The notes under the pieces are model-generated. The model saw only the letters and a program-made list of their open reading frames with translations, had not been told where the DNA came from and did not search any database. This document shows positions 5,765-25,410 of a stretch of 64,000 nt of DNA, piece after piece; position 1 is the stretch's first letter, and every line of letters begins with the position of its first letter. The DNA comes from Serratia plymuthica (GTDB lineage Bacteria > Pseudomonadota > Gammaproteobacteria > Enterobacterales > Enterobacteriaceae), in contig NZ_CP068771.1 of assembly GCF_018336935.1 (NCBI RefSeq), forward strand, positions 3,968,001-4,032,000, in the 5' to 3' direction. Position numbers and translations under genes: made by a program.

Positions 5765-5874
5765 AACAACGTGAAGCCTCTTGTTAGCAATGCGCCGCAA
5801 GCATACCAGAAACCGGGTAGCAGATCTGTGGTGTTGGAAAACCGGGAGCCGGGAGAGTTTCCTGACCCAAGCTC

Positions 5875-5880
5875 TATAAT
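5875..5880 (+). promoter_or_regulatory. Candidate -10 element for dgkA
   Basis: A perfect TATAAT lies 34 bases before the dgkA start. No good -35 hexamer is visible at 16-18 bases, so an activator or another sigma factor may contribute. Confidence 0.4.
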
Positions 5881-5913
5881 TATGACTTACCTCTGTGAAA
5901 GGCACTAAAAAAC

Positions 5914-6282
5914 ATGGCAAACCAAGCAACCGGCCTGACCCGTATTATTAAAGCCGCCGGCTACTCATACAAAGGCTTTTCTGCTGCCTGGCAGCACGAA
6001 GCCGCCTTCCGCCAGGAACTGGTGGCGACCGTGCTGGCTATCATACTGGCGATCTGGCTGGATGTGGGTGCGATAGCGCGCATTTTACTGATCGGATCGG
6101 TACTGTTGGTCGTGATCGTCGAGATGCTGAACAGCGCGATTGAAGCCATTGTCGACAGGGTGGGTACGGAACACCACGAGCTTTCCGGCCGCGCGAAAGA
6201 TATGGGGTCGGCGGCGGTAACGCTGACGATCGTACTGGCGCTGTTTGTCTGGGGTTCTGTACTGTGGCAGCACTTTGTCTGA
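5914..6282 (+). CDS. dgkA: Diacylglycerol kinase
   Basis: DgkA phosphorylates diacylglycerol to phosphatidic acid in the inner membrane, recycling the diacylglycerol left by membrane-derived oligosaccharide synthesis. The 122-residue length and three hydrophobic helices are typical. The family signature [13 protein letters not shown] is near residues 69-81, holding the catalytic Glu and Asn, followed by the conserved [15 protein letters not shown] block. It is divergent from plsB, which uses the same phosphatidate pool, as in E. coli. Confidence 0.97.
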
Positions 6283-11934: not shown

Positions 11935-12945
11935 ATGACGACAGACAACCACGCCTCAAAATATGCCGCCAATCGTTTCTCCATCGCGCCGATGCTCGAC
12001 TGGACCGACCGTCATTGCCGTTACTTCCATCGCCTGCTGACCAAAGAAACGCTGCTTTACACCGAAATGGTGACCACAGGCGCGATTATTCACGGCAAGG
12101 GCGACTATCTGGCCTACAGCGAAGAAGAACATCCGGTGGCGTTGCAACTGGGCGGCAGCGATCCGGCTGCGCTGGCGCACTGTGCCAAACTGGCCGAGCA
12201 GCGCGGCTACGACGAGATTAACCTCAACGTCGGTTGCCCGTCCGATCGCGTGCAGAACGGTATGTTCGGCGCCTGTCTGATGGGGCAGGCGACGCTGGTC
12301 GCCGACTGCATCAAGGCGATGCGCGACGTGGTGTCGATCCCGGTGACGGTCAAGACCCGCATCGGCATCGACGACCAGGACAGCTACGAATTTCTGTGCG
12401 ATTTTATCGCCACCGTCGCCGGGCGCGGCGAGTGCGACATGTTTACTATCCATGCGCGCAAGGCCTGGTTGTCCGGCCTCAGCCCGAAAGAAAACCGTGA
12501 GGTGCCGCCGCTGGACTATCCGCGTGTGTACCAACTGAAACGGGATTTTCCGCAGCTGACTCTCGCCATTAACGGCGGTGTGAAAACGCTGGAAGAAGCC
12601 AAGCAGCATCTGGAGCATCTGGATGGCGTAATGATGGGGCGCGAGGCTTATCAGAATCCGGGCATTTTGGCGCGGGTCGACAGCGAGCTGTTTGGCCGCC
12701 AGAGCGAGGTCATGGACAGCGTGGCGATTATCGAGTCGCTGTATCCGTATATTGAACGCGAGCTGTCGAACGGCACCTATTTGGGGCATATCACCCGCCA
12801 TATCCTCGGCCTGTTCCAGGGCGTGCCGGGTGCGCGCCAGTGGCGTCGCCATTTGAGCGAGAACGCCCACAAACCGGGTGCCGATGCGCGCGTGGTGGAA
12901 GCTGCGCTGGATCTGGTTCGTCTGCCGCGTACCGAAGTGGCGTAA
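11935..12945 (+). CDS. dusA: tRNA-dihydrouridine synthase A
   Basis: DusA reduces uridines in the D-loop of tRNA (U20/U20a in E. coli) using FMN and NADPH. The 336-residue TIM-barrel protein has the N-terminal [14 protein letters not shown] block and the [12 protein letters not shown] motif with the catalytic cysteine. It also has the FMN phosphate-binding stretch (AINGGVKT ... [12 protein letters not shown]). The length and sequence match E. coli DusA. A terminator follows directly. In E. coli it is next to zur and pspG; here only the zur side is disturbed by the ECF operon. Confidence 0.96.
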
Positions 12946-12984
12946 TACGCAAAGAATTTGACTAACAGTTAGTCCTTTTCATCA

Positions 12985-13017
12985 GGCATTCAGCGCTCCG
13001 CTGTTTGCCTTTTTTTA
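12985..13017 (+). terminator. Rho-independent terminator of dusA
   Basis: Arms GGCATTCAGCG / CGCTGTTTGCC with one mismatch and a 3-base loop, followed by eight T's. Confidence 0.85.
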
Positions 13018-13047
13018 TATTTCAATTGCTTATCTTTTCCACCGTTC

Positions 13048-13063
13048 TGGCATGCATCTTGTA
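13048..13063 (+). promoter_or_regulatory. Sigma-54 (RpoN) promoter of pspG
   Basis: TGGCATGCATCTTGTA matches the -24/-12 consensus, with GG and GT exactly ten bases apart. It lies 37 bases before the start. In E. coli pspG is transcribed by sigma-54 with PspF. A short dyad GACTAACAGTTAGTC at 12960-12974 could be an upstream activator site, but this is unverified. Confidence 0.75.
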
Positions 13064-13099
13064 ATACTCCTGCAGAGATTTTTTTGCGAAGGAGCAATC

Positions 13100-13318
13100 A
13101 TGTTAGAACTCTTCTTTCTCGTTGGCTTTGTAGTGATGCTGATGGTGACCGGAATTTCGCTGCTGGGCGTGTTCGCCGCGTTACTGGTCGCGGCGGCATT
13201 TATGCTGCTGGGCGGCCTGTTTGCGATGGTGATAAAGCTGCTGCCCTGGTTGATTTTGGCCGTGGTGGGCGTCTGGATATACCGTTCGATGCAGAAGCCG
13301 CAAATACGCCGTTACTGA
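13100..13318 (+). CDS. pspG: Phage-shock protein G
   Basis: A small inner-membrane effector of the phage-shock response to loss of proton-motive force or membrane damage. The 72-residue protein starts MLELFFLVGFVVMLMVTGISLLGVFAAL, matching E. coli PspG, and has two long hydrophobic stretches (about residues 3-35 and 38-60). It ends shortly after them; the E. coli protein has a slightly longer basic/aromatic tail. The start at 13100 has AAGGAG upstream; an extended frame from 13052 begins inside the sigma-54 promoter and is rejected. It is a single gene with its own promoter. Confidence 0.92.
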   Translation: MLELFFLVGFVVMLMVTGISLLGVFAALLVAAAFMLLGGLFAMVIKLLPWLILAVVGVWIYRSMQKPQIRRY

Positions 13319-13489
13319 TTTTTTGTCGAGTAATCAGACAGTCACGCTGAAATTTGCGTAACGAATGTATCGTGAATGGGGCGGCGATCACACCTTGGCG
13401 TTTTAAATGCGAATGCGGCACATTAAGCGTGTTTTTTGCATTTAGGGGCTGGTAGGATACTTGTCGATGCAGCGATGCGACCTATTTCA

Positions 13490-13612
13490 TCACCGCAAGA
13501 GACAATAATACCCAATACGAGCGTTGCTGAAGCAACCCCCTGTCTCTGGCGGACTCTGCTCTACCCCTACAAATGCAGTACATAGAAAGGGCTCCTTACG
13601 GAGCCCTTTTCT
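13490..13612 (+). ncRNA. Candidate small RNA between pspG and qorA
   Basis: The 307-base pspG-qorA gap has no open frame with recognisable content. Its right end holds a short hairpin (GTTGCT-GA-AGCAAC around 13523-13536) followed by the strong terminator at 13589-13610, readable on the plus strand. This looks like the 3' part of a small transcript. No convincing promoter was found, so the 5' end is a guess, and the hairpin may simply serve as the qorA terminator. Confidence 0.25.
13589..13610. terminator. Terminator downstream of qorA
   Basis: Perfect arms GGGCTCC / GGAGCCC with loop TTAC. TTTT follows on the plus strand. The minus-strand tail (TTTCTATG) is weaker, so it works best rightwards. 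Confidence 0.7.
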
Positions 13613-13625
13613 TTTGCCTGGGGGC

Positions 13626-14609
13626 TCAGGGGATCAGCAGGCTTGAACCGCTGGTGTTGCGGCTTTCCAGCACTTCATGCGCACGCTGCGCATCGGCCAG
13701 CGCAAACTTTTGCTCTTCTTTTACGTCGACCTTGATGGCGCCGCTGCCGATCAACGAGAACAGTTCATTGCTGGCGAATTGCAACTCGTCGCGGTTAGTG
13801 ACATAGCCGTTAAGCGAAGGGCGGGTGACGTACAACGAACCTTTCTGGTTCAGCAGCGCCAGATCGACGCCGGTTACCGGGCCGGAGGCGTTGCCGAAGC
13901 TGACCATCAGCCCACGGCGTTTGAGGCTATTGAGTGAAGCCTGCCAGGTACTTTGACCCACCGAATCGTACACCACGCCGACTTTTTCGCCCTGCGTCAG
14001 TTCAGCCACGCGCTGGGCGATATCTTCTTTATGGTAATTGATGGTCGCCCAGGCACCGGCGCGTTTAGCCAGTTCGGCTTTTTCGTCGGAGCCGACGCTG
14101 CCGATCAGCTTCGCGCCGAGCGCCTTGGCCCACTGGCAGGCAATCAACCCGACGCCGCCTGCGGCGGCATGGAACAGAAACACTTCGCCCGGCTGCACTT
14201 CGTGGGTTTGGCGCAGCAGATAATGTACCGTCAGCCCTTTCAGGAACGAGGCGGCGCCCTGCTCAAAGCTCAGGTTATGCGGCAGTATTGCCACTTTATC
14301 CACCGAAACATTGTGAATGTCGCTGTAGGCGCCGAGTGACGACTGAGCGTAAACCACGCGGTCGCCAGGTTTGACCGCGCTGACGCCGGCGCCCACCTTG
14401 ATCACCACGCCGGCCGCTTCGGTGCCCAGCCCGCTTGGCAGACTGGCGGGCGGGTAGAGACCGCTGCGAATATAGGTATCGATGTAGTTGATGCCGATCG
14501 CCTTATTCTCAACCTGGACCTCACCGGAGGCTGGATCTGTAGGTGTAAAATCAACGTATTGCAACACTTCCGGGCCGCCGGTGGCGGAGAACTGAATGCG
14601 CTTTGCCAT
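13626..14609 (-). CDS. qorA: NADPH:quinone oxidoreductase 1
   Basis: A cytoplasmic zeta-crystallin-type, zinc-free medium-chain reductase that uses NADPH to reduce quinones by one electron. The 327-residue protein has the GroES-like N-terminal domain (GINYIDTYIRSGLYPP ... GTEAAGVVIKVG) and the Rossmann nucleotide motif AAAGGVGLIACQWAKALGA near residues 148-166. The catalytic-zinc cysteines of alcohol dehydrogenases are absent, as expected. It is divergent from dnaB, as in E. coli. Confidence 0.95.
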   Translation of the reverse strand: MAKRIQFSATGGPEVLQYVDFTPTDPASGEVQVENKAIGINYIDTYIRSGLYPPASLPSGLGTEAAGVVIKVGAGVSAVKPGDRVVYAQSSLGAYSDIHNVSVDKVAILPHNLSFEQGAASFLKGLTVHYLLRQTHEVQPGEVFLFHAAAGGVGLIACQWAKALGAKLIGSVGSDEKAELAKRAGAWATINYHKEDIAQRVAELTQGEKVGVVYDSVGQSTWQASLNSLKRRGLMVSFGNASGPVTGVDLALLNQKGSLYVTRPSLNGYVTNRDELQFASNELFSLIGSGAIKVDVKEEQKFALADAQRAHEVLESRNTSGSSLLIP

Positions 14610-14789
14610 TTCATTACCTCATTGGGGTGTCTGATTTCACCCTACGCGTTTTAGTATTGACGATCCAGTTTAGCCGGGCGCGGATTGATACCTTTTTTGC
14701 ATCGGTTATGCCGCGGGAATCACAGATAAAAATCACGTATACTCTCGCGTCAGGATTCTCCATTCGCAACCGGATAAAGAATACGCTTC

Positions 14790-16214
14790 ATGGCAGGAAA
14801 AAAACCAACCAACAAAACTTACGCGGACGAAGCCAGAGATCGCCCCCGAGATCGCCAGATGGAAGGGCTGAAGATGCCGCCACATTCGCTGGAGGCGGAA
14901 CAGTCCGTGTTGGGCGGTTTGATGCTGGATAACGAACGCTGGGATAACGTATCGGAACGCGTGGTCTCCAACGATTTCTTCAGCCGCCCGCACCGCCTGA
15001 TCTTTACCGAGATGCAGCGGCTGTTGGAAATGAGCCGGCCTATCGACCTGATCACCCTGTCCGAATCGCTCGAGCAGCGCGGCGAACTGGATTCGGTGGG
15101 CGGTTTCGCCTATCTGGCCGAGCTGTCGAAAAATACCCCAAGCGCCGCCAACATCGGCGCTTATGCCGACATCGTGCGTGAACGTGCGGTCGTGCGCGAA
15201 ATGATCTCGGTAGCCAACGAGATCGCCGACGCCGGTTACGATCCGCAGGGCCGCAGCAGTGAAGATCTGCTCGATCTGGCCGAGTCGCGGGTATTCCAGA
15301 TCGCGGAAAATCGCGCCAGTAAAGATGAAGGCCCGAAAGGCATCGAGCGCATTCTGGAAGACACCGTTTCGCGTATCGAACAGCTGTACCAGCAGCCGCA
15401 CGACGGCGTTACCGGGGTAGATACCGGCTATCAGGATCTCAACAAGAAAACCGCCGGCCTGCAGAAATCCGACCTGATCATCGTCGCCGCCCGTCCATCG
15501 ATGGGTAAAACCACGTTCGCCATGAACCTGTGCGAACACGCCGCGATGACGCAGGAAAAGCCGGTGCTGATCTTCAGCCTGGAGATGCCCGGCAACCAGA
15601 TCATGATGCGTATGCTGGCGTCGCTGTCGCGCGTCGACCAGACGCGTATTCGTACCGGCCAGCTCGACGACGAGGACTGGGCGCGCATTTCCAGCACCAT
15701 GGGCATCCTGCTGGAGAAGCGCAATATGTACATCGACGACTCCTCCGGCCTGACGCCAACCGAAGTGCGCTCCCGCGCGCGCCGTATTTTCCGCGAGCAT
15801 GACGGCCTTAGCCTGATCATGATCGACTACCTGCAGCTGATGCGCGTGCCGGCCCTGTCCGACAACCGTACGCTGGAGATCGCCGAAATTTCCCGCTCGC
15901 TGAAGGCGCTGGCGAAAGAGCTGCAGGTGCCGGTGGTGGCGCTGTCGCAGTTGAACCGAAGCCTGGAGCAGCGCGCCGACAAACGCCCGGTCAACTCGGA
16001 CCTGCGTGAATCCGGTTCCATCGAGCAGGATGCCGACTTGATCATGTTCATCTACCGTGACGAGGTTTATCACGAGAACAGCGACATGAAAGGGATTGCC
16101 GAAATTATTCTGGGTAAGCAGCGTAACGGCCCGATCGGTACCGTGCGCCTTACCTTTAATGGCCAGTGGTCGCGTTTCGATAACTACGCGGGGCCACAAT
16201 ATGATGATGAATAA
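14790..16214 (+). CDS. dnaB: Replicative DNA helicase DnaB
   Basis: DnaB is the hexameric 5'-3' helicase that unwinds DNA at the replication fork and recruits primase. The 474-residue protein has the N-terminal helical domain (about residues 28-170), a linker helix and the RecA-like C-terminal domain. Walker A is at 233-241 (ARPSMGKTT), and Walker B is in the LIMIDYLQLMR block, followed by the SRSLKALAKEL and SQLNRSLEQR motifs. It is nearly collinear with E. coli DnaB apart from a few N-terminal residues. No intein interrupts it. alr follows after 17 bases, probably in the same transcript. Confidence 0.98.
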   Translation: MAGKKPTNKTYADEARDRPRDRQMEGLKMPPHSLEAEQSVLGGLMLDNERWDNVSERVVSNDFFSRPHRLIFTEMQRLLEMSRPIDLITLSESLEQRGELDSVGGFAYLAELSKNTPSAANIGAYADIVRERAVVREMISVANEIADAGYDPQGRSSEDLLDLAESRVFQIAENRASKDEGPKGIERILEDTVSRIEQLYQQPHDGVTGVDTGYQDLNKKTAGLQKSDLIIVAARPSMGKTTFAMNLCEHAAMTQEKPVLIFSLEMPGNQIMMRMLASLSRVDQTRIRTGQLDDEDWARISSTMGILLEKRNMYIDDSSGLTPTEVRSRARRIFREHDGLSLIMIDYLQLMRVPALSDNRTLEIAEISRSLKALAKELQVPVVALSQLNRSLEQRADKRPVNSDLRESGSIEQDADLIMFIYRDEVYHENSDMKGIAEIILGKQRNGPIGTVRLTFNGQWSRFDNYAGPQYDDE

Positions 16215-16231
16215 TCAGTTAAGGAATTGAA

Positions 16232-17311
16232 ATGAAAGCGGCAACCGCTGTCATCGACCGCCGCGCTCTGCGACATAATCTGCAACAGGTGCGCCGCCAG
16301 GCGCCGCAAAGCCGCCTGATTGCCGTTGTGAAAGCAAACGCTTATGGACATGGCCTGCTGGAAACGGCTCATACCCTGCAAGACGCCGACTGCTACGGCG
16401 TGGCGCGCATCGGCGAGGCGCTGATGTTGCGCTCCGGCGGCATAGTGAAACCGATCTTGTTGCTGGAAGGCTTCTTTTGCGCGGAAGATCTGCCGGTACT
16501 GGTGGCGAATAACATCGAAACCGCGGTGCACAGCATCGAACAGCTTGAAGCGCTGGAGCAGGCCGAGCTGACGCGCCCGGTGCAGGTATGGATGAAGCTG
16601 GACACCGGCATGCACCGCCTCGGCGTGCGTCCGGAACAGGCCGAAGCGTTTTACCAGCGTCTGATCGCCTGCCGTAACGTGGCGCAGCCGGTCAATATCA
16701 TGAGCCACTTCAGCCGCGCCGATGAACCGGACTCTGACGCTACGCTCAGGCAAATGCAGTGCTTCGAAAGTTTTGCCCGTGGCAAGCCGGGCCAGCGCTC
16801 GATCGCCGCTTCGGGCGGCACCTTGCTATGGCCGGACGCGCACAATGACTGGGTACGGCCGGGCATTATCCTGTACGGCGTTTCTCCGATGGAAGATTCC
16901 TGCGGCAGCCAGTTTGATCTGCAGCCGGCGATGACGCTGAAGTCCAACCTGATTGCGGTGCGCGACCACAAGGCCGGCGAGTCGGTGGGTTACGGCGGCA
17001 CCTGGGTGAGCGAAGGCGACACTCGGCTGGGCGTGGTGGCGATGGGCTATGGCGATGGTTATCCGCGCAGTGCGCCCTCCGGTACCCCGGTATGGCTTAA
17101 TGGCCGTGAAGTGCCGGTGGTCGGCCGGGTATCGATGGACATGATTTCGGTCGATCTCGGGCCGGACGCGACCGATAAGGTCGGCGATGAAGTGGTGCTA
17201 TGGGGCAAGGCGTTGCCGGTCGAGCGCATTGCCGCCTGTACGGGCATCAGCGCCTATGAGCTGATTACCAAGCTGACGCAGCGCGTCGCGATGGAATATA
17301 TCGGCGAATAG
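16232..17311 (+). CDS. alr: Alanine racemase (constitutive type)
   Basis: Alr interconverts L- and D-alanine with pyridoxal phosphate, supplying D-Ala for peptidoglycan. In the 359-residue protein the PLP lysine is Lys34 ([10 protein letters not shown]) and the catalytic tyrosine is Tyr254 (SVGYGGTW). The GYGDGYPR and VGRVSMDM blocks are conserved. It lies 17 bases after dnaB, the E. coli arrangement. In E. coli tyrB follows next; here pheC, aroP, an Lrp-type gene and a YitT gene are placed in between. Confidence 0.97.
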
Positions 17312-17319
17312 CCTGTCGT

Positions 17320-17340
17320 GGGCCGGCAAGGCGCCGGCCC
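17320..17340. terminator. Hairpin between alr and pheC
   Basis: Perfect GC-rich arms GGGCCGGC / GCCGGCCC with a 5-base loop, placed between the convergent genes. No T-run follows, so intrinsic termination is uncertain. Confidence 0.5.
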
Positions 17341-17354
17341 TGATCTTCAATGCG

Positions 17355-18122
17355 TTACTTCTTTACCGCCAGCCACTGATCGATAATGCTCTGATACTCG
17401 CCGGTCGCTTTGGCCAGGTGCAGCCACTGATCCACATACAGCTTCCAGCTCAGATCATCACGCGGCAACATATAGGCCTTCTCGCCGTATTGCAGCGGTT
17501 TGTCCGGATTGACCGCGCACAGTTTCGGATAACGTTTTTGCTGATACAGCGCCTCGGAAGCGTCGGTAATCATCACATCGGCTTTCTTGTCCACTAACTG
17601 CTGAAAAATACCCACGTTATCATGGGTCAACGTCAGCTTGGCGTCGGGCAGGTAAGCATGCACGAAAGCTTCGTTGGTGCCACCCGCCGGTTCCAGCAGG
17701 CGCACGGACGCCTTGTTGATCTGATCGACCGTCCGGTATTTCTTCACGTCGGTGCAGCGCACCAGCGGGATTTTACCGTCGGTATCCAGCTTATCGGCGA
17801 AGAACACCTGTTTTTGCCGCTGTAGCGTGACGGAAATGCCGCCCATGGCGATGTCGCATTTGCCGGCGACAAAGTCCGGCGTCAGGGTTTTCCAACTGGT
17901 TTTCACCCACTTCACTTTGGCGCCCAGGCTCTTGGCCAGCGATTCCGCCATGGCGATATCAATGCCTTCGTAGCTGCCGTCTTCCTTCAAAAAGGTGTAG
18001 GGCTTGTAATCGCCGGTGGTGCAAACTTCCAGCGTACCCTGTTGTATCACCTTATCCAGATGGGATTGGGCGCTGGCGCTCCCGGCGGCGACCAGCAGGG
18101 CGAGAGGTAATAGCTTTTTCAT
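17355..18122 (-). CDS. pheC: Periplasmic cyclohexadienyl (arogenate/prephenate) dehydratase
   Basis: The 255-residue protein has a signal peptide (MKKLLPLALLVAAGSASA) and the periplasmic solute-binding fold. It follows the Pseudomonas PheC enzyme rather than a transporter subunit: TTGDYKPY (35-42), TSW (75-77), GGTNEAF (147-153), DNVGIFQQLVDKKADVMITDASEA (168-191), LCAVNP (201-206) and EKAYMLPRD (214-222). The DxxEA glutamate (Glu190) is the position I recall as catalytic in PheC. PheC dehydrates and decarboxylates prephenate to phenylpyruvate, or arogenate to phenylalanine. C123 and C202 match the PheC cysteine pair; C34 and C89 are an extra pair. No ABC permease or ATPase is near. It starts 13 bases after the aroP stop, so the two are co-transcribed. 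The alternative is an amino-acid-binding protein. Confidence 0.82.
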   Translation of the reverse strand: MKKLLPLALLVAAGSASAQSHLDKVIQQGTLEVCTTGDYKPYTFLKEDGSYEGIDIAMAESLAKSLGAKVKWVKTSWKTLTPDFVAGKCDIAMGGISVTLQRQKQVFFADKLDTDGKIPLVRCTDVKKYRTVDQINKASVRLLEPAGGTNEAFVHAYLPDAKLTLTHDNVGIFQQLVDKKADVMITDASEALYQQKRYPKLCAVNPDKPLQYGEKAYMLPRDDLSWKLYVDQWLHLAKATGEYQSIIDQWLAVKK

Positions 18123-18135
18123 CTGTTTCCCTTGC

Positions 18136-19524
18136 TTATACGTTATTGGATTCAGCAATGGCGCCCGGCGCGGCGGCGTTCTTTTTCTTCAGCAGATAAC
18201 TTGCCGCCAGCACCAACAGCCAAACCGGAATCAACCATACCGAAATCCGGATGCCTGGCGTCATGAACATAATGACCAAAATCCCGGCTAAAAACAGCAG
18301 ACAAATCAGATTGGTGAACGGGTAACCCCAACTTTGGAAACGCGTTTGCTGCCCGGCCAGCCGCTTGGCGCGCCGAAACTTCAGGTGAGTAATGCAGATC
18401 ATGGCCCAGTTGATCACCAAGGCGGACACCACCAACGCCATCAGCAATTCAAACGCCTTGCCCGGCATCAGGTAGTTGAGCAGCACGCACAGTGCGGTCA
18501 CCAGCGCCGAGACGCTCAGCGCCGCCAGCGGAATGCCGCGCCGGTTGATCTTCAGCAGTGCGCGCGGTGCGTTGCCCTGTTTCGCCAGCCCAAACAGCAT
18601 GCGGCTGTTGCAGTATACGCAGCTGTTGTACACCGACAGGGCGGCGGACAGCACCACCATGTTCAGCAGCGTCGCCACCAGATTGCTGTCCAACGCATGG
18701 AAGATCAGGACGAACGGGCTGCCGCCTTCCACAACCTTTTGCCACGGATACAGCGACAGCAGCACCGCCAGTGCGCCGACATAAAACAGCAGAATACGGT
18801 AAATCACCTGATTGGTGGCCTGCGGGATACTTTTCTCCGGGTTATCCGCTTCGGCGGCGGTAATGCCGACCAGCTCCAGGCCACCGAATGAGAACATGAT
18901 CACTGCCATTGCCATCACCAGGCCGCTGATGCCGTTAGGGAAGAAACCGCCGTATTGCCACAGGTTGGCCACGCTGGCGTCCGGCCCGCCGTGCCCGCTG
19001 GCCAACAGCCAGGCGCCAAATGCGATCATGCTGATGATCGCCGCCACTTTGATGATGGAAAACCAGAACTCCATCTCGCCGTACACCTTGACGCTGGTCA
19101 GGTTGATGGCGTTGATCGCCACAAAGAATACCGCTGCGGAGACCCAGGTCGGAATCTCCGGCCACCAGTACTGTACGTAAATGCCCACGGCGGTCAGTTC
19201 CGCCATGCTCACCAACACGTACAGCACCCAATAGTTCCAGCCGGACATAAAACCGGCGAACCCGCTCCAGTATTTATTGGCAAAGTGGCTGAAGGAGCCG
19301 GCTACCGGCTCTTCCACCACCATTTCACCCAGTTGGCGCATGATAAAGAAGGCGATGATCCCGGCGATGGCGTAACCGAGCAGCACCGAGGGGCCGGCCA
19401 TCTTTATGGTCTGGGCGATGCCGAGAAACAGGCCGGTGCCGATGGCGCCGCCGAGAGCGATCAGCTGGATGTGACGGTTTTTTAACCCTCTTTTCAACTG
19501 GTTTTCTGACTGATGATTGTCCAT
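18136..19524 (-). CDS. aroP: Aromatic amino acid permease (AroP-like)
   Basis: A 462-residue amino-acid/polyamine/cation-family transporter with twelve hydrophobic helices, importing phenylalanine, tyrosine and tryptophan with protons. It follows E. coli AroP closely: LKRGLKNRHIQLIALGGAIGTGLFLG at the N-terminus, IMRQLGEMVVEEPVAGSFSHFA, MFSFGGLELVGITAAEADNPEKSIP and LSVYNSCVYCNSRMLFGLA (CVYC as in AroP, where PheP has GVYS). The PheP alternative is less likely for that reason. The start MDNHQSENQLKRGLKNRH is preferred over a 28-residue upstream extension. It leads the aroP-pheC operon, next to tyrB, and is divergent from an Lrp-type regulator. Confidence 0.9.
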   Translation of the reverse strand: MDNHQSENQLKRGLKNRHIQLIALGGAIGTGLFLGIAQTIKMAGPSVLLGYAIAGIIAFFIMRQLGEMVVEEPVAGSFSHFANKYWSGFAGFMSGWNYWVLYVLVSMAELTAVGIYVQYWWPEIPTWVSAAVFFVAINAINLTSVKVYGEMEFWFSIIKVAAIISMIAFGAWLLASGHGGPDASVANLWQYGGFFPNGISGLVMAMAVIMFSFGGLELVGITAAEADNPEKSIPQATNQVIYRILLFYVGALAVLLSLYPWQKVVEGGSPFVLIFHALDSNLVATLLNMVVLSAALSVYNSCVYCNSRMLFGLAKQGNAPRALLKINRRGIPLAALSVSALVTALCVLLNYLMPGKAFELLMALVVSALVINWAMICITHLKFRRAKRLAGQQTRFQSWGYPFTNLICLLFLAGILVIMFMTPGIRISVWLIPVWLLVLAASYLLKKKNAAAPGAIAESNNV

Positions 19525-19871
19525 CTGTGTTCCCCAAAAAGGTAAATGCGTGTCGCTGGGGATTTTGCAACTATCGGGCCAGTGGGTAAGGATGATGGGG
19601 GGTATCACTAATAACCTGCTGAAAACGTTATTTAATTATTTTTTCACTTTAACTCACGGACCGTGCATTAAACTGTGTTTATTGCGGGGTTTAGGGCGTT
19701 TTAACCTTGTTTTTCGCACGTAATGCCCGTATTGGGTGCCCGTGATGACCGGAAATGGGCCAGGGTGGTGCAATGAAATTGTGAGGTGTCGCCGGGGAAT
19801 CAAAACGGGGGGATTACAGGGGCAAAAAAACTGATAGTCTGTAACGTCAACATTTCTTAACGGGTTTACAG
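19525..19871. promoter_or_regulatory. Divergent aroP / Lrp-regulator control region
   Basis: This 347-base gap holds the promoters of the aroP-pheC operon (leftward) and the Lrp-type gene (rightward). The middle (about 19615-19700) is AT-rich. I looked for TyrR boxes (TGTAAA-N6-TTTACA) and found only unpaired halves (TGTAAC at about 19842 and TTTACA at 19865). Divergence from the regulator suggests the Lrp-type protein controls aroP-pheC. Confidence 0.5.
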
Positions 19872-20345
19872 GTGGCTATGTACAACATTGACGATTTTGA
19901 TATGAAAATCCTGACGCTGTTACAGGCCAATGGCCGTCTGACCAATCAGGAATTGAGCGAATTGGTGGGGTTGTCCGCTTCCCAGTGCTCACGGCGGCGC
20001 ATCAGCCTGGAACAGGCTCAGTTGATCCGCGGTTACCATGCGCGGCTGGCGCCGGAGGCCGTGGGGTTGGGGATGGTGGGGTTAATCGAAGTGAGCCTGA
20101 CCAACCATGCCCAGGAACATGTGGACAGCTTTCATCGCATGCTGGAAGAGGTTGACGCTATTCTCGACGCCTATAAAACCACCGGCGACGCTGACTATCT
20201 GTTAAAGGTGGCGGTGGCCGATCTGGCTGCGCTGAGCGACTTTATCAGCAAAACCCTGTCGATGCACAAGAGCGTAGCGCACGTGAAAACCGCGGTGGTA
20301 CTGAACCGGCTGAAAGAAAACGGGCTGCTGCCGGTAGCGCGCTAA
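19872..20345 (+). CDS. Lrp/AsnC-family transcriptional regulator
   Basis: A 157-residue feast/famine regulator. The N-terminal winged helix is at about residues 6-60 (DFDMKILTLLQANGRLTNQELSELVGLSASQCSRRRISLEQAQLIRGY). The C-terminal RAM ligand-binding domain is at about 68-145 (GMVGLIEVSLTNHAQEHVDSFHRML ... TTGDADYLLKVAVADLAALSDFI). Such proteins bind amino acids as octamers and act on neighbouring transport or metabolic genes. Its position suggests it senses an aromatic amino acid and controls aroP-pheC; this is inference. The start is GTG at 19872 or ATG at 19878; the latter has AGGTGG at a better spacing. Confidence 0.9.
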   Translation: MAMYNIDDFDMKILTLLQANGRLTNQELSELVGLSASQCSRRRISLEQAQLIRGYHARLAPEAVGLGMVGLIEVSLTNHAQEHVDSFHRMLEEVDAILDAYKTTGDADYLLKVAVADLAALSDFISKTLSMHKSVAHVKTAVVLNRLKENGLLPVAR

Positions 20346-20392
20346 TCGGACATTATCACATCCATTGAATGAACCATTTAGGGGCGGGCTGC

Positions 20393-20446
20393 ACCATTAA
20401 TGGGCATTTAATGCGATTAATGGTTGGTAAATTTGCATTTAATGCG
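20393..20446. promoter_or_regulatory. Nested and repeated palindromes upstream of the YitT gene
   Basis: GCATTTAATGCG occurs twice, at 20404-20415 and 20435-20446, 31 bases apart (about three helical turns). The first copy is enclosed by perfect 8-base inverted arms, ACCATTAA (20393-20400) and TTAATGGT (20417-20424), sharing the same centre. This looks like a composite operator. The binding protein is unknown; the adjacent Lrp-type regulator is the obvious candidate. Confidence 0.5.
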
Positions 20447-20658
20447 TGATGTTTGCGGTTATTTTGTTTTTTATGCGTATTTTGTGCATTTTTTATTTTA
20501 AATGAAAACAGCGGCTTATTGTGGGTAAATGCCGAACATCCTGTGAAATCGCATGATGACGGCCGTTTTGCTTATCTTATGGTGTGGCTTTTGCATTATT
20601 CAGCGTACAAACCCGGTTCACCGGGCGGTGATGGCAACCTACTTTGAGTAATAACACC

Positions 20659-21276
20659 ATGGATAACTGCATCAGCCCTGAAGACAATATTTCCCATACT
20701 TTGCTGGAAGACGTGCTGGCGATCCTGATCGGCACGCTGATGGTGTCGTTCGGCGTGATCCTGCTGCGGCAGGCCGGCGCGCTGACCGGCGGCACCGCCG
20801 GATTGGCTTTTTTAATCAATTACCTGACACCGCTGTCGTTCGGCGTAGCGTTCTTTTTGCTTAACCTGCCGTTCTATTATCTGGCGATCCGCCGTATGGG
20901 GTGGGCGTTCACCGTCAAAACCTTCTGCTCGGTGGCGCTGGTGTCGATATTTTCCGATTTGCACCCCTATTTCATCCATTTTGATCGCCTGCAGCCTTTT
21001 TATGCAACGGTATTCGGTAGCATGATCATGGGGTTAGGGTTTATTGTGTTATTTCGCCATAGGGCCAGCCTGGGCGGCGTCAATATTCTCGCGCTGTATC
21101 TGCAGGATAAATACGGTTTGCGCGCCGGCAAGTTGCAAATGGCGGTCGATATTTCTATCGTCTTAGCCTCACTGTTTGTGGTGAATATTTCCCTGCTAAT
21201 TGCGTCTATATTAGGTGCAATGGTGCTGAATCTGATTATCGCGATGAACCATCGCCCTGGTCGTTACAGCGTTTAA
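20659..21276 (+). CDS. YitT-family membrane protein
   Basis: A 205-residue inner-membrane protein of the YitT/DUF161 family with five or six hydrophobic segments and the family glycine-rich block ILLRQAGALTGGTAGLAFLINY near residues 35-56. A second conserved block is GLGFIVLFRHRASLGGVNILALYLQDKYG. The family's function is unknown, with transport suspected. A TTG at 20644 would add five residues; neither start has a strong ribosome site. It sits between the Lrp-type regulator and tyrB on the same strand and belongs to the block absent from this place in E. coli. A link to aromatic amino acids is only inferred from position. Confidence 0.85.
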   Translation: MDNCISPEDNISHTLLEDVLAILIGTLMVSFGVILLRQAGALTGGTAGLAFLINYLTPLSFGVAFFLLNLPFYYLAIRRMGWAFTVKTFCSVALVSIFSDLHPYFIHFDRLQPFYATVFGSMIMGLGFIVLFRHRASLGGVNILALYLQDKYGLRAGKLQMAVDISIVLASLFVVNISLLIASILGAMVLNLIIAMNHRPGRYSV

Positions 21277-21317
21277 ATTTGTACCCTCTGAATAACCCAA
21301 TCTAGGAGAACGACCCC

Positions 21318-22511
21318 GTGTTCCAGAACGTTGATGCCTATGCAGGCGATCCTATCCTGTCGCTGATGGAAAAATTCAAAAAAGACACACGTGCGCACAA
21401 GGTTAACCTGAGTATCGGCCTTTACTATGACGAGCGGGGCATTATCCCGCAGATGAAGGCGGTTGCCGCAGCGGAAGCGCAGTTGAACAGCGTGGATCAG
21501 GGGGCGTCGGTGTATCTGCCGATGGAAGGTCTGCTGCCTTACCGTACCGCCATTCAGCACCTGCTGTTCGGTGCCGAGCACCCGATGCTACAGCAGGGGC
21601 GCATCGCCACCATTCAGACCGTAGGCGGTTCCGGCGCGCTGAAAGTGGGTGCCGACTTCCTGAAAAGCTACTTCCCGGATTCGCAGGTGTGGGTCAGCGA
21701 TCCTACCTGGGAAAACCATATTGCCATCTTCGGCGGCGCCGGTTTCAAAGTGAACACCTATCCGTACTTTGATGGCGAAAGCCTGGGCGTGAAGTTTGAC
21801 GCCATGTTGAGCGCGTTGAAACAGCTGCCGAAACACAGCATCGCGCTGCTGCATCCGTGCTGCCACAACCCGACAGGCTCTGACCTGACCAATGCCCAAT
21901 GGGATGAAGTGGTCAAGGTGATCGCCGAGCGTGAGCTGATCCCGTTCCTCGACATCGCCTATCAGGGGTTTGGCGGCGGTATCACCGAAGATGCTTACGC
22001 TATCCGCACTATCGCCGCCGCCGGTCTGCCGTGCCTGGTGAGCAATTCGTTCTCGAAAATCTTCTCGCTGTATGGCGAACGCGTCGGCGGCCTTTCGGTA
22101 GTGTGCGAAAGCGAAGAAGCGGCCGGGCGCGTGCTGGGGCAATTGAAGGCCACCGTGCGCCGCAACTACTCCAGCCCGCCGAACTTCGGTGCGCAGGTGG
22201 TGGCGAAGGTGCTGAACGATACGCAGTTGAAGGCCCAGTGGCTGGCGGAAGTGGAAACCATGCGCACCCGCATCCTTGAGATGCGCAAAACGCTGGTAGA
22301 GGCGCTGAAAATCGCGTTGCCGCAGCGTAACTTCGATTACCTGTTGCAGCAGCGCGGCATGTTCAGCTACACCGGCTTCAGCGCGGCGCAGGTTGATCGC
22401 CTGCGTGAAGAGTTCGGCGTGTACCTGATCCACAGCGGGCGCGTTTGCATGGCCGGTCTGAACCACAACAACGTGCATCAGGTGGCCGAGGCGTTTGCCG
22501 CAGTGCAGTAA
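21318..22511 (+). CDS. tyrB: Aromatic amino acid aminotransferase
   Basis: TyrB is a cytoplasmic PLP enzyme that makes phenylalanine and tyrosine from phenylpyruvate and hydroxyphenylpyruvate with glutamate, and also acts on aspartate and leucine. The 397-residue protein has the PLP lysine at Lys247 ([16 protein letters not shown]). Asn and Asp/Tyr of the cofactor pocket lie in [11 protein letters not shown] and [10 protein letters not shown]. It starts with GTG, preceded by AGGAG. With pheC and aroP upstream, phenylpyruvate or phenylalanine produced outside the cytoplasm could be imported and balanced by TyrB. A strong terminator follows. Confidence 0.96.
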
Positions 22512-22540
22512 AAACTGTTAGGGTGAACTGAAGTTCGCAA

Positions 22541-22570
22541 AGGAGCGATAGCGATATCGCTCCTTTTTTG
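22541..22570 (+). terminator. Rho-independent terminator of tyrB
   Basis: Perfect 10-base arms AGGAGCGATA / TATCGCTCCT with loop GCGA, followed by TTTTTT. Confidence 0.9.
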
Positions 22571-22637
22571 TTGTCGGTTTGCCGCCAAAGTTGCCGCAAA
22601 CCGGATAGAGAATATACTGATTGAGGGGCGCTCACTC

Positions 22638-23054
22638 ATGTGGCATCAGCAAACGCTTATCCTCAGCGCAAAAGCGCGTGGTTTTCATCTGGTTACCGAA
22701 GAGATTACCGACCAGTTAACCCACTTACACCGCCTGCAAACCGGCCTGCTGCATCTGTTGTTGCAGCATACCTCGGCCTCGCTGACGCTCAACGAGAACT
22801 GCGATCCCACGGTGCGAGCCGACATGGAGCAGCATTTCCTGCGTCAGGTACCCGAGAACGCACCCTATCAGCATGACTACGAAGGGCTGGACGACATGCC
22901 GGCACACATCAAATCCTCGCTGTTGGGCGCATCTTTAACGCTGCCTGTGAGTCACGGGCGGCTGATGTTGGGCACATGGCAGGGGATTTGGCTGGGGGAG
23001 CACCGCATCCACGGCGGTTCACGCCGTATTGTGGCCACTTTACAGGGGGAGTAA
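22638..23054 (+). CDS. yjbQ: YjbQ, UPF0047 family protein
   Basis: A 138-residue soluble protein of the YjbQ/UPF0047 family. Members have a weak thiamine-phosphate synthase activity that can replace ThiE when overproduced, but the true role is unresolved. The family core is [28 protein letters not shown] and [12 protein letters not shown] (conserved His, Asn and Asp). It ends four bases before the yjbR start, and the pair is an operon as in E. coli. Confidence 0.94.
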
Positions 23055-23058
23055 CCCA

Positions 23059-23412
23059 ATGAATAACACAGCACTGCTGGAATACTGCATGGCGAAGCCG
23101 GGCGCTGAACAAAGCGACCAGAACCAGTGGCAGGCCAGCCAGATCAAGGTCGGCGACGTGATGTTCGCCATGGTGTGCGAGGTGCAGGGGCGGCCGGCGC
23201 TGGCGGTGAAATCAAGCCCGGAGCTGGCGGAAAGCCTGCGCGAGCATCACCCGGAGATCGTCGCCTGCGCCGGCATGAACAAGGCGCACTGGAATACGGT
23301 GTTTCTCGACGGCAACTTGCCGAACTCGCAATTTTATACCCTGATCGACAGTTCATATCAGCTGGTGCTGGAAGGGTTACCCGACCACGTGCGGCAGGAG
23401 CTGCGCGCTTAA
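23059..23412 (+). CDS. yjbR: YjbR, MmcQ/YjbR-family DNA-binding-like protein
   Basis: A 117-residue cytoplasmic protein of the MmcQ/YjbR family, whose fold resembles a double-wing DNA-binding domain. The core is visible in MFAMVCEVQGRPALAVKSSPELAESLREHHP and the end block FYTLIDSSYQLVLEGLP. Function is not established; E. coli YjbR binds DNA weakly in vitro. The start is the ATG at 23059 just after yjbQ; a longer upstream frame overlaps yjbQ and is rejected. A hairpin (GGCAGGC/GCCTGCC) follows. Confidence 0.93.
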   Translation: MNNTALLEYCMAKPGAEQSDQNQWQASQIKVGDVMFAMVCEVQGRPALAVKSSPELAESLREHHPEIVACAGMNKAHWNTVFLDGNLPNSQFYTLIDSSYQLVLEGLPDHVRQELRA

Positions 23413-23419
23413 CCTGCAG

Positions 23420-23442
23420 GGCAGGCGTGGCTGCCTGCCTTT
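23420..23442 (+). terminator. Hairpin terminator after yjbR
   Basis: Perfect 7-base arms GGCAGGC / GCCTGCC, loop GTGGCT, with TTT after the stem. Confidence 0.55.
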
Positions 23443-23493
23443 CCGCTGCGTTATCTCCTTTTTCTCTTTAAATTGTGATCGCGATTCTAAAAT

Positions 23494-23505
23494 GGGAACG
23501 TTCCC
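23494..23505 (+). promoter_or_regulatory. 12-bp palindrome upstream of the maa-like gene, candidate LacI-type operator
   Basis: GGGAACGTTCCC is a perfect palindrome with the central CG step typical of LacI/GalR-family operators. It lies 71 bases before the acetyltransferase start. A sugar-responsive repressor is inferred; none is encoded nearby. Confidence 0.4.
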
Positions 23506-23575
23506 TTTTCATTGGGCATCAGGAAAGACTAGGCTTTTTTAATCAATGAGCCGCGAGACCAAAGGATGCCCCGAG

Positions 23576-24133
23576 ATGGCGATGAGTGAAGAAAAACGCA
23601 AGATGATTGCCGGCGAACTCTACGATGCCGGTGACGAGCTGCTGCGCAGCGAACGCAAGCGTGCGCGCCAGCTGGTGCACCATTACAACCATTCATCCCC
23701 GGACGAGGGCGACCTGCGCAAACAGTGGCTGACGGCGCTGCTGGGCCAGTATCAGGGGGGAACCATCGAACCGACGTTCCGCTGCGATTACGGTTATAAC
23801 ATCTATCTGGGGAAGAATTTTTACGCCAATTTTGACTGCGTCATCCTGGACGTGTGCGAAGTGCATATTGGCGATAACTGCCTGTTGGCGCCGGGGGTGC
23901 ATATTTACACCGCGACCCATCCGCTGGATGCGCAAACCCGCGTCGGCGGTGCGGAGTTCGGCAAACCGGTAAACATTGGCAATAACGTGTGGATCGGCGG
24001 CAGGGCAGTCATTAACCCCGGCGTCACTCTGGGCGATAACGTGGTGGTGGCGTCCGGGGCGGTCGTCACCAAAGACGTGCCGGCCAACTGCGTGGTCGGC
24101 GGCAATCCGGCGCGGGTGATTAAACAGCTATAG
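23576..24133 (+). CDS. maa: Maltose O-acetyltransferase-like hexapeptide acetyltransferase
   Basis: A cytoplasmic acetyl-CoA-dependent O-acetyltransferase of sugars (maltose, glucose). The N-terminal maltose-acetyltransferase helix region ([29 protein letters not shown]) precedes a left-handed beta-helix of hexapeptide repeats ([18 protein letters not shown] ... [36 protein letters not shown]). The catalytic histidine is in YTATHPLD. The start ATG at 23576 has AAAGGA nine bases upstream; an ATG two codons later is also possible. It is close to E. coli Maa over the whole length, though not at the E. coli location. It may detoxify excess sugars. Confidence 0.9.
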
Positions 24134-24140
24134 CAAAAAA

Positions 24141-24162
24141 CGGGCGCCGCAGTGGGCGCCCG
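24141..24162. terminator. Terminator between maa and the YahK-like gene
   Basis: Perfect arms CGGGCGCC / GGCGCCCG with a 6-base loop. The minus strand continues into TTTTTT, so it serves the alcohol dehydrogenase gene best, although it also follows maa. Confidence 0.75.
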
Positions 24163-24167
24163 TCGCA

Positions 24168-25220
24168 TTATGCTCGCAGAGAGTTGATATCCACCACGAA
24201 ACGGTATTTCACGTCGCTTTTCAGCATGCGCTCATAGGCTTCGTTGATTTGCTGCATCGGGATCAGTTCGATATCCGAAGTAATGCCGTGCTGGCCGCAG
24301 AAATCCAGCATCTCCTGGGTTTCTGCAATGCCGCCGATCAGCGAACCGGCAAGGCGGCGGCGTTTCATGATCAGGTTAAACACCTGCGGTGACGGGTGAT
24401 CGTGTTCCGGCGCGCCGACCAGCGTCAAGGTGCCATCACGCCGCAGCAGGTTGAGGAACGGGTTCAGATCGTGCTGAGCCGCTACCGTGTTGAGAATAAA
24501 ATCGAAGCTGTTGGTGTGCTGCGCCATTTCTTCCGGGTTGCGCGAGATCACCACTTCATGGGCGCCGAGGCGTTTGGCGTCTTCAACTTTGGAAGCCGAC
24601 GTGGTGAACAGCACCACATGAGCGCCCATTGCCCGCGCCAGCTTGACCCCCATATGCCCCAAGCCGCCGAGGCCGACGATACCGACTTTCTTGCCCGGCC
24701 CGGCCCCCCATTGGCGCAACGGCGAATAGGTGGTGATGCCGGCGCAAAGCAGCGGCGCGACGCCGGCCGGATCGAGGTTTGCCGGTACCCGCAGCACAAA
24801 GTCCTGATCCACCACCATCGCGGTTGAGTAGCCGCCGTAGGTGATGGCGCCGGTTTGCCGATCCTGGCCGTTATAGGTGCCGGTAAAACCGTTTTCACAG
24901 TATTGCTCCAGCCCTTCGTCACAGCTCGGGCAGCTGCGACAGGAATCGACCATGCAGCCGACGCCGACCAGATCGCCGACCTGATGGCGGGATACGTGGT
25001 TGCCGACGGCGGTCACGCGGCCAACAATTTCATGGCCGGGCACTACCGGGAAAATCGAGTTGTTCCATTCGTTGCGGGCCTGGTGCAGATCCGAATGGCA
25101 GACGCCACAGAACAGAACCTCGATTTGCACATCGTGGTCGCGCAGGGCGCGCGGTGTGTAATCGAAAGGAACGAGCGCTGACTTCGCGTCATGCGCGGCA
25201 TAGGCATGCGTAATGTTCAT
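24168..25220 (-). CDS. Zinc-dependent NADP alcohol/aldehyde reductase, YahK type
   Basis: A 350-residue cinnamyl-alcohol-dehydrogenase-type enzyme closely resembling E. coli YahK, which reduces many aldehydes with NADPH. Catalytic zinc ligands are in CGVCHSD and the GHE motif (VVPGHEIVG). The structural zinc is held by the cysteine cluster CRSCPSCDEGLEQYC, and the nucleotide fold is GIVGLGGLGHMGVKLA. The start MNITHAYAAHDAKSALVPF is chosen; a 74-residue upstream extension has no family support. It is monocistronic, with its own 3' terminator. Confidence 0.92.
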   Translation of the reverse strand: MNITHAYAAHDAKSALVPFDYTPRALRDHDVQIEVLFCGVCHSDLHQARNEWNNSIFPVVPGHEIVGRVTAVGNHVSRHQVGDLVGVGCMVDSCRSCPSCDEGLEQYCENGFTGTYNGQDRQTGAITYGGYSTAMVVDQDFVLRVPANLDPAGVAPLLCAGITTYSPLRQWGAGPGKKVGIVGLGGLGHMGVKLARAMGAHVVLFTTSASKVEDAKRLGAHEVVISRNPEEMAQHTNSFDFILNTVAAQHDLNPFLNLLRRDGTLTLVGAPEHDHPSPQVFNLIMKRRRLAGSLIGGIAETQEMLDFCGQHGITSDIELIPMQQINEAYERMLKSDVKYRFVVDINSLRA

Positions 25221-25410
25221 GGTAACTCCAGTCATCAGTGAATGGGGGGATAATGCTTTCCGGCAGCAGAGTGCCGGTGAGACGCGGCCCAGGTCATACG
25301 GGCGGCGCAGAGGGAACATTGATGATAAAAGCTGTGAGCGGGGAGGGAAATGCCTGAAAATGTCTAAATCTTGCCTGTTTCTCTTTAATTGGGGCAGAGC
25401 GGATAAAATG

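Follow-up and report, generated by a model that had tools for sequence, protein, structure and literature searches.

A candidate nitrogen-responsive locus for aromatic acquisition and its putative variant dehydratase of the periplasm in Serratia plymuthica

The export of chorismate mutase and cyclohexadienyl dehydratase (CDT) by bacteria is called an enigma in PMC10520331 (2023). A stretch of 64,000 nucleotides from Serratia plymuthica (assembly GCF_018336935.1, contig NZ_CP068771.1, positions 3,968,001 to 4,032,000; hereafter the window) raises the same question within a single locus: what is the role of pheC, a gene for a secreted CDT-like protein that directly follows the aromatic permease gene aroP and shares its surroundings with a divergent Lrp-type regulator gene (lrpX), yitT and the aromatic aminotransferase gene tyrB? 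Here we propose that the locus probably serves the acquisition of aromatic compounds in response to nitrogen supply, and that PheC is probably a variant dehydratase of the periplasm. The proposal draws on the placement of PheC among CDTs, on an active-site replacement that its relatives have kept, and on sigma54/NtrC-type signals at conserved positions on either side of lrpX.

PheC and the P128 subfamily

The N-terminus of PheC is of the Sec type by eye (MKKLLPLALLVAAGSASA/QS), and the protein is 47 % identical to PheC of P. aeruginosa (PaCDT). Its best relatives in the PDB are AncCDT-5 (287 bits) and PaCDT (244 bits); the CDT domain of DsCDTCM scores 220 bits and ABC-type (ATP-binding cassette) binding proteins score at most 76 bits. 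Because AncCDT-1, a reconstructed protein without CDT activity according to PMC7683729, also scores 162 bits, similarity alone is no proof of catalysis. The closest named match among the best 80 of 273 loci is from S. inhibens (100 %). The fold is clear from sequence, and a structure model (mean predicted local distance difference test, pLDDT, 72.8; predicted template modelling score, pTM, 0.54) plays no part in the argument.

A binding protein of an amino acid ABC transporter, misread as PheC, would likewise match PF00497 and the generic family-3 binding-protein models, as PheC does. This reading is scarcely credible. All 13 NCBIfam models listed for PheC remain below their cut-offs, ArtJ and HisJ (the type that an earlier note on this DNA had named as the alternative) and other binding-protein models being far under theirs, and in the tree PheC lies inside the CDT clade, a long branch away from three binding-protein-like outgroup rows. 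That note had also seen no ABC permease or ATPase nearby, and we recognised none in 12000-25400, where seven of the genes were profile-scanned and the remaining ones named by eye; no search for a transporter partner was made beyond that stretch. Identity as an ABC-type binding protein is disfavoured by both model scores and tree. The tree comprises 71 rows (38 with proline at PaCDT position 128, or P128; 30 CDTs with asparagine there, or N128; and the three outgroup rows) with columns 126-130 excluded; a 70-row re-run added the kinetically characterised DsCDTCM and omitted the long-branched L160 and L166. Both were quick searches without bootstrap that gave long-branch warnings elsewhere in the tree.

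The section of PMC10520331 on the PaCDT active site gives nine residues: Tyr22, Trp60, Lys100, Asn128, Thr132, Asn133, Asn152, Thr169 and Glu173. PheC has eight of the nine, the general acid Glu173 among them, and has lost Asn128: where canonical CDTs have VNPGGTNE it reads EPAGGTNE, with glutamate for Val127 and proline for Asn128. Glu190 of PheC corresponds to Glu173 of PaCDT, and in two fusion enzymes the equivalent exchange for glutamine removed CDT activity (PMC10520331). The earlier note had called the protein PheC-type from the motifs TTGDYKPY, GGTNEAF, DNVGIFQQLVDKKADVMITDASEA, LCAVNP and EKAYMLPRD. All five are present, and both the clade and the GGTNE motif bear the assignment out; residues 127-128, however, are Glu-Pro and not Val-Asn.

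The replacement is a stable one. Among 200 close relatives (the best 120 of 4169 proteins together with the best 80 of 273 loci, the organisms overlapping), position 128 is proline in 199 and leucine in one, and position 127 is glutamate in every one. Tyr22, Trp60, Lys100, Thr132, Asn133, Thr169 and Glu173 are likewise present in 200/200, and Asn152 in 199, with a gap in the other. A wider sample of 49 loci (29 from a search that matched 61 of 398 phylum genomes, plus 20 further stretches) has Asn128 in its other CDT-like sequences, while L175, L176, L179 and L180, outlying P128 members, read Ala-Pro where the rest of the group reads Glu-Pro. Since the P128 group forms a single clade (Shimodaira-Hasegawa-like approximate likelihood ratio test, SH-aLRT, 99) nested among N128 CDTs in both the 71-row tree and its re-run, Asn128 was replaced once and the replacement was then kept. 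With one of the nine active-site residues changed, the activity of PheC is not simply readable from sequence, and we file the protein as a P128 variant within the CDT clade, not as a proven CDT.

The loss of Asn128, together with the binding-protein fold, would also suit a former CDT that is no longer an enzyme and has become a periplasmic binder or sensor of prephenate, arogenate or phenylpyruvate; a signalling role for exported chorismate mutase-CDT (CM-CDT) enzymes is suggested in a passage of PMC10520331. Such a sensor is very unlikely here, given that Glu173, Lys100, Trp60 and Thr132 are invariant in all 200 relatives listed and that neither a receptor gene nor an ABC transporter gene was recognised near pheC (12000-25400).

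P128-type PheCs also occur outside Enterobacterales, in Acinetobacter (L047, L048, L075) and Pseudomonas (L067, L071, L073, L076-L078, L081, L082, L084); these are 68-73 % identical, stand without alr-tyrB neighbours and possibly reflect horizontal transfer. A second, more distant CDT-like group in family genomes (L165, L170, L171, L172) is 36-40 % identical to PaCDT and carries the motif VNPGGTNQ. A CDT using both prephenate and arogenate was reportedly described by the Jensen group for Erwinia herbicola, now Pantoea agglomerans. In P. agglomerans NBRC 102470, possibly a different strain, the sole strong homologue of CDTs is a P128 protein (480 bits), the next match being partial at 77 bits; this speaks for catalysis in the subfamily and against the sensor reading. 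Both CDT reactions, on prephenate and on arogenate, are stated in the corresponding part of PMC7683729.

Regulatory signals on either side of lrpX

Upstream of aroP, eleven regions were compared: the window; L005, L037 and L039, with the order lrpX-aroP-pheC; L021, L023, L025 and L033, with aroP-pheC only; and L215, L216 and L218, with lrpX-aroP only. L115, a second copy of the window, was excluded. Their alignment shows no variation in TGGC-N7-TTGC, which forms the core of the sigma54 motif TGGCAC-N5-TTGCW. The sigma54-like site lies 54-68 bp before the aroP start in 11/11, with one mismatch in five and two in six (per-locus shuffle p<=0.02), an equally good match standing at another place in L039. 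An NtrC-type site, TGCACC-N5-GGTGCA, lies 244-261 bp upstream of aroP in all eleven, with one to three mismatches (p<=0.019). Neither signal was found at L116 and L117, the two closest aroP paralogues among 11 further matches in the genome. A combined enhancer-promoter pattern, written after the fact, matches once in the 5.46-Mb genome, at aroP, and not at all in the reversed control.

The other side of lrpX carries signals of the same kind. Over 52 distinct yitT-side regions, one of which (L221) has tyrB but no yitT, a sigma54-like site with at most one mismatch occurs in 33 and an NtrC-type site in 32, and pairs of NtrC-type sites about 20 bp apart stand upstream of yitT in several other loci. 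The 52 regions are a recount. A hand-chosen sample of 27 yitT loci had given 23 sigma54-like sites (at most one mismatch) and 17 NtrC-type sites (at most two), against shuffle expectations of 0.24 and 0.17, and it flattered the result because Rahnella and Rouxiella were under-represented; the 19 regions that lack the sigma54 site include all those examined from these two genera. Ten Rahnella and Rouxiella loci (L040, L041, L043-L045, L054-L057, L064) keep lrpX-yitT-tyrB and have neither a yitT sigma54-like site nor a full aroP, which may have been lost together.

Enhancer-like sites lie about 190 bp upstream of the sigma54-like promoters, and an enhancer at such a distance upstream is a usual sigma54 layout. 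The genome of the window itself encodes ntrC (814 bits, cut-off 559) and rpoN (526 bits, cut-off 277). A sigma54 promoter core with position-conserved upstream NtrC-type sites, as expected of an NtrC/sigma54 regulon, is thus what the sequence holds.

Could these motifs be chance, or belong to another regulator such as the Lrp-type protein, with nitrogen playing no part? Single sites in the 64-kb window are no commoner than chance (4 against 3.7 expected and 6 against 5.0), so that it is their conserved position that makes the case for sigma54/NtrC; the palindromes flanking lrpX might be operators for its own product, and 19 of the 52 yitT-side regions are without the sigma54 site. The motif forms (including the Y/R form) and the position windows were set after viewing the sequences, and within a genus the loci do not count as independent. 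Even so, the fixed position in 11/11 aroP loci and 33/52 yitT-side regions, the enhancer-like sites at their regular distance and the absence of both signals at the closest aroP paralogues make this explanation quite unlikely.

For pheC itself the picture differs from that of aroP. None of 80 pheC upstream regions, 73 of which are from loci that lack a full aroP, has a sigma54 or NtrC site at one mismatch or fewer, and nitrogen control of pheC is for this reason proposed only where aroP precedes it, the window being such a case. Sites with two mismatches are scattered, and a sigma54 origin for pheC was dropped; one such site stands at -70 of pheC in the Acinetobacter locus L075.

The product of lrpX matches PF13404 (an AsnC-type helix-turn-helix) and PF01037 (the ligand domain), both above cut-off, and is not Lrp itself, reaching 105 bits on a model whose cut-off is 233. 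The earlier note had made it an aromatic-sensing protein. This idea gains no direct support: 30 of the 75 genomes with lrpX lack a strong PheC, and the conserved signals that flank the gene look like those of sigma54/NtrC, which points to nitrogen control, a feature that the note had not seen. The lrpX-aroP gap holds no TyrR box at three mismatches or fewer, and one site with three mismatches lies upstream of yitT (20426-20443); the TyrR passages of PMC5343134 list aroP and tyrB as TyrR targets. A candidate lrpX operator, GCATT-N-AATGC, was found 18 times upstream of yitT, where 50 shuffles averaged 2.4. It had been picked from the window, ranked sixth among the palindromes tried once the window was left out, and was dropped.

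Gene order in relatives and the secreted chorismate mutase

The gene order and coordinates in the earlier note (pheC, aroP, the divergent Lrp-type gene, yitT, tyrB, alr) and the 13 bases that it placed between the end of aroP and the start of pheC are all correct (Table 1). AAGGGA in this gap is a possible ribosome site, and the spacing between yitT and tyrB is 41 bp. The aroP product scores 797 bits on the NCBIfam AroP model, below its cut-off of 848. In E. coli alr adjoins tyrB, as the earlier note says. The yitT product is a candidate nitrogen-related transporter, with a sigma54/NtrC-type region upstream in many of the loci compared.

Table 1. Genes, codons and candidate regulatory sites of the locus, in window coordinates
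Feature	Position	Strand	Description
alr	16232-17311	+	alanine racemase, flanking gene; TIGR00492 cut-off passed
pheC	17355-18122	-	255 aa; secreted CDT-clade protein, P128 subfamily; PF00497
codons Glu144-Pro145	17688-17693	-	PaCDT positions 127-128 by alignment (Val-Asn in PaCDT)
aroP	18136-19524	-	aromatic amino acid permease paralogue; start of presumed aroP-pheC operon
sigma54-like promoter TGGCCCGATAGTTGCA	19566-19581	-	57 bp before aroP ATG; at most 2 mismatches in 11/11 aroP loci
NtrC-type enhancer TGCACCACCCTGGCCCA	19756-19772	-	248 bp before aroP ATG
lrpX	19872 (GTG) or 19878 (ATG) to 20345	+	Lrp/AsnC-family regulator; divergent from aroP-pheC; PF13404, PF01037
weak NtrC-type site TGAACCATTTAGGGGCG	20370-20386	+	3 mismatches; possible partner of the 20390-20406 site
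NtrC-type site TGCACCATTAATGGGCA	20390-20406	+	upstream of yitT; 2 mismatches
sigma54-like promoter TGGTGTGGCTTTTGCA	20580-20595	+	upstream of yitT; at most 1 mismatch to TGGYRC-N5-TTGCW
yitT	20644-21276	+	YitT-family membrane protein; likely ATG 20659; PF02588
tyrB	21318-22511	+	aromatic aminotransferase; PF00155; NF006719 subfamily cut-off passed

How general is this arrangement? Among the 80 named loci (the best 80 of 273), a full aroP lies beside pheC in seven and is absent from the other 73. The gene lrpX diverges from the pheC side in 32, with a full aroP between them in three (L005, L037, L039); four loci (L021, L023, L025, L033) have aroP-pheC and no lrpX match in the stretch examined, and 44 have neither a full aroP nor lrpX beside pheC. 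Because C-terminal fragments of aroP stand directly upstream of pheC in L028, L030 and L038, the aroP-pheC pair is probably ancient, with repeated loss of aroP since. The adjacency behind the coupling of PheC to AroP that the earlier note proposed is lineage-specific. In the named Serratia loci L006-L020 tyrB comes directly after lrpX, within 75-124 bp, with no yitT between. Two pheC copies, one of them beside aroP, occur in Rouxiella badensis (L025 and L043), Serratia sp. M24T3 (L023 and L044) and Erwinia rhapontici (L033 and L029).

Across 392 family genomes lrpX was found in 75: within 4 kb of pheC in 36, with pheC elsewhere in nine and with no strong pheC in 30. Twenty of the 39 cases in which lrpX is not adjacent to pheC were inspected, 15 of them without pheC; in 17 of the twenty the gene after lrpX is yitT, and in three (L215, L216, L218) an intact aroP diverges from lrpX. 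In L220 a gene that looks by eye like a pyridoxal phosphate aminotransferase (5070-6251) diverges from lrpX in place of aroP or pheC.

The earlier note had suggested a search for a secreted AroQ-class chorismate mutase, and the genome (G000, 5.46 Mb) does encode one. Of its four CM_2 matches, that at L004 1378-1956 is an AroQ-gamma chorismate mutase: it reaches 126 bits on TIGR01806, whose cut-off is 74, passes NF005965 and, judged by eye, carries a signal peptide. Those at L001 and L003 would be PheA and TyrA, which they fit by position and length, and that at L002 is isochorismate-lyase-like (NF005475 above cut-off), a PchB-type CM_2 protein at 1459-2100 whose open frame extends upstream of the matched domain. 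Among the 392 genomes a strong PheC is present in 57 (split in one, G162) and AroQ-gamma above cut-off in 82; 40 genomes have both, 17 PheC alone, 42 AroQ-gamma alone and 293 neither. AroQ-gamma therefore accompanies PheC in 40/57 genomes against 42/335 without it (Fisher odds ratio 16, p 8e-19, uncorrected for kinship and with tiny symbiont genomes included). The 335 contain 23 genomes with only weaker CDT-like hits (33-39 % identity), set apart beforehand and counted as PheC-less, of which seven have AroQ-gamma. In G162 pheC lies in two pieces (C1:4515794-4516560), and the same genome is without an lrpX match at E <= 1e-50.

Neither the overflow pathway nor its two enzymes, PheC and secreted AroQ, are new; a hidden overflow pathway reportedly operates in P. 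aeruginosa and Erwinia herbicola (Fiske 1983, Xia 1993, Xia 1991). The locus might be an ordinary instance of it, with PheC equivalent to PaCDT, the change at Asn128 neutral and the neighbours related by position only. This somewhat unlikely explanation accommodates the eight active-site residues kept, the co-occurrence of AroQ-gamma, the 73 named loci without a full aroP, and the Erwinia and Pantoea loci L024 and L063, in which pheC has no aromatic neighbours. In both of these we take the neighbours, by eye, to be mdaB-like and ygiN-like, with a parC-like gene downstream in L063. A neutral site is not expected to look like this one, replaced in one event with Pro128 kept in 199/200 and Glu127 in 200/200 of the relatives listed, and conserved sigma54/NtrC-type signals frame the locus.

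A proposed role and its meaning

From the gene order, the clade, the conserved residues, the presence of AroQ-gamma, ntrC and rpoN and the conservation of the motifs, we infer the following course of events, in which catalysis, substrate, transcription from the promoters, flow through AroP and TyrB and any ligand of the lrpX product are all conditional. Nitrogen limitation would activate NtrC, and sigma54 polymerase would transcribe aroP-pheC in one direction and yitT-tyrB in the other, flanking lrpX. Exported PheC, as a member of a distinct subfamily marked by proline for Asn128 and mostly by Glu127, would dehydrate prephenate and/or arogenate. The substrate would be supplied by the secreted AroQ-gamma, whose gene lies at another place in the genome, or come from the cell's surroundings. 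AroP could import phenylalanine formed from arogenate, and TyrB, which would be cytoplasmic since no signal peptide is seen by eye, could then take up the amino nitrogen by transamination.

The two substrates are not equal in this scheme. AroP is an amino acid permease, and phenylpyruvate, the product from prephenate, is not a known substrate of it. Since phenylpyruvate also lacks nitrogen, the operon makes more sense for arogenate. The uptake of the PheC product by AroP that the earlier note envisaged would accordingly be open to phenylalanine from arogenate, but not obviously to phenylpyruvate. In a more speculative form of the proposal, which builds on this point and on the Glu-Pro change and which we think unlikely, Glu-Pro would mark a shift of specificity from prephenate to L-arogenate, the glutamate helping to hold the amino group; under nitrogen starvation NtrC and sigma54 would induce both units together, and PheC, AroP and TyrB would together salvage the nitrogen of extracytoplasmic arogenate, self-made or plant-derived, so that PheC would serve to salvage nitrogen instead of relieving overflow.

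Several of the observations above weigh against a nitrogen-responsive acquisition locus with a variant dehydratase: the score of inactive AncCDT-1; the replacement of Asn128, an active-site residue in PaCDT; the 17 of 57 PheC genomes without AroQ-gamma over cut-off; pheC without aromatic neighbours in L024 and L063; the lack of close sites upstream of pheC itself; the yitT-side regions without a sigma54 site; the chance-level frequency of single sites in the window; and, in the motif counts, the choice of forms and windows after the fact and the kinship of loci.

Comparison with known systems places the locus further. Like PaCDT (PDB 3KBR, 5HPQ), PheC has Glu173, Lys100, Trp60 and an export signal by eye, and unlike it lacks Val127 and Asn128; the Lrp-type neighbour and the sigma54/NtrC-type signals are described here for the Serratia locus, the comparison with PaCDT covering the protein. 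The hidden overflow pathway to phenylalanine likewise combines a secreted AroQ with PheC, whereas the Serratia locus has a permease beside pheC and predicted nitrogen control, with no periplasmic aminotransferase identified, although no search aimed at one was made. Exported CM-CDT fusions, in their description in PMC10520331, also join an extracytoplasmic chorismate mutase to a CDT; they keep all nine residues, in contrast to PheC, and Serratia has two separate, distant genes. NtrC regulons of Proteobacteria share the control of nitrogen acquisition genes, although the NtrC passages of PMC5343134 name no aroP, yitT, pheC or tyrB. We found no description of the P128 subfamily or of the paired sigma54/NtrC layout in the literature searched, subscription journals lying mostly outside its coverage.

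A dehydratase and an aromatic importer in a likely operon, behind an apparent nitrogen-starvation promoter, would offer a testable reason for exporting such an enzyme. The single, long-kept loss of Asn128 is also a natural test of substrate holding in an enzyme of binding-protein descent.

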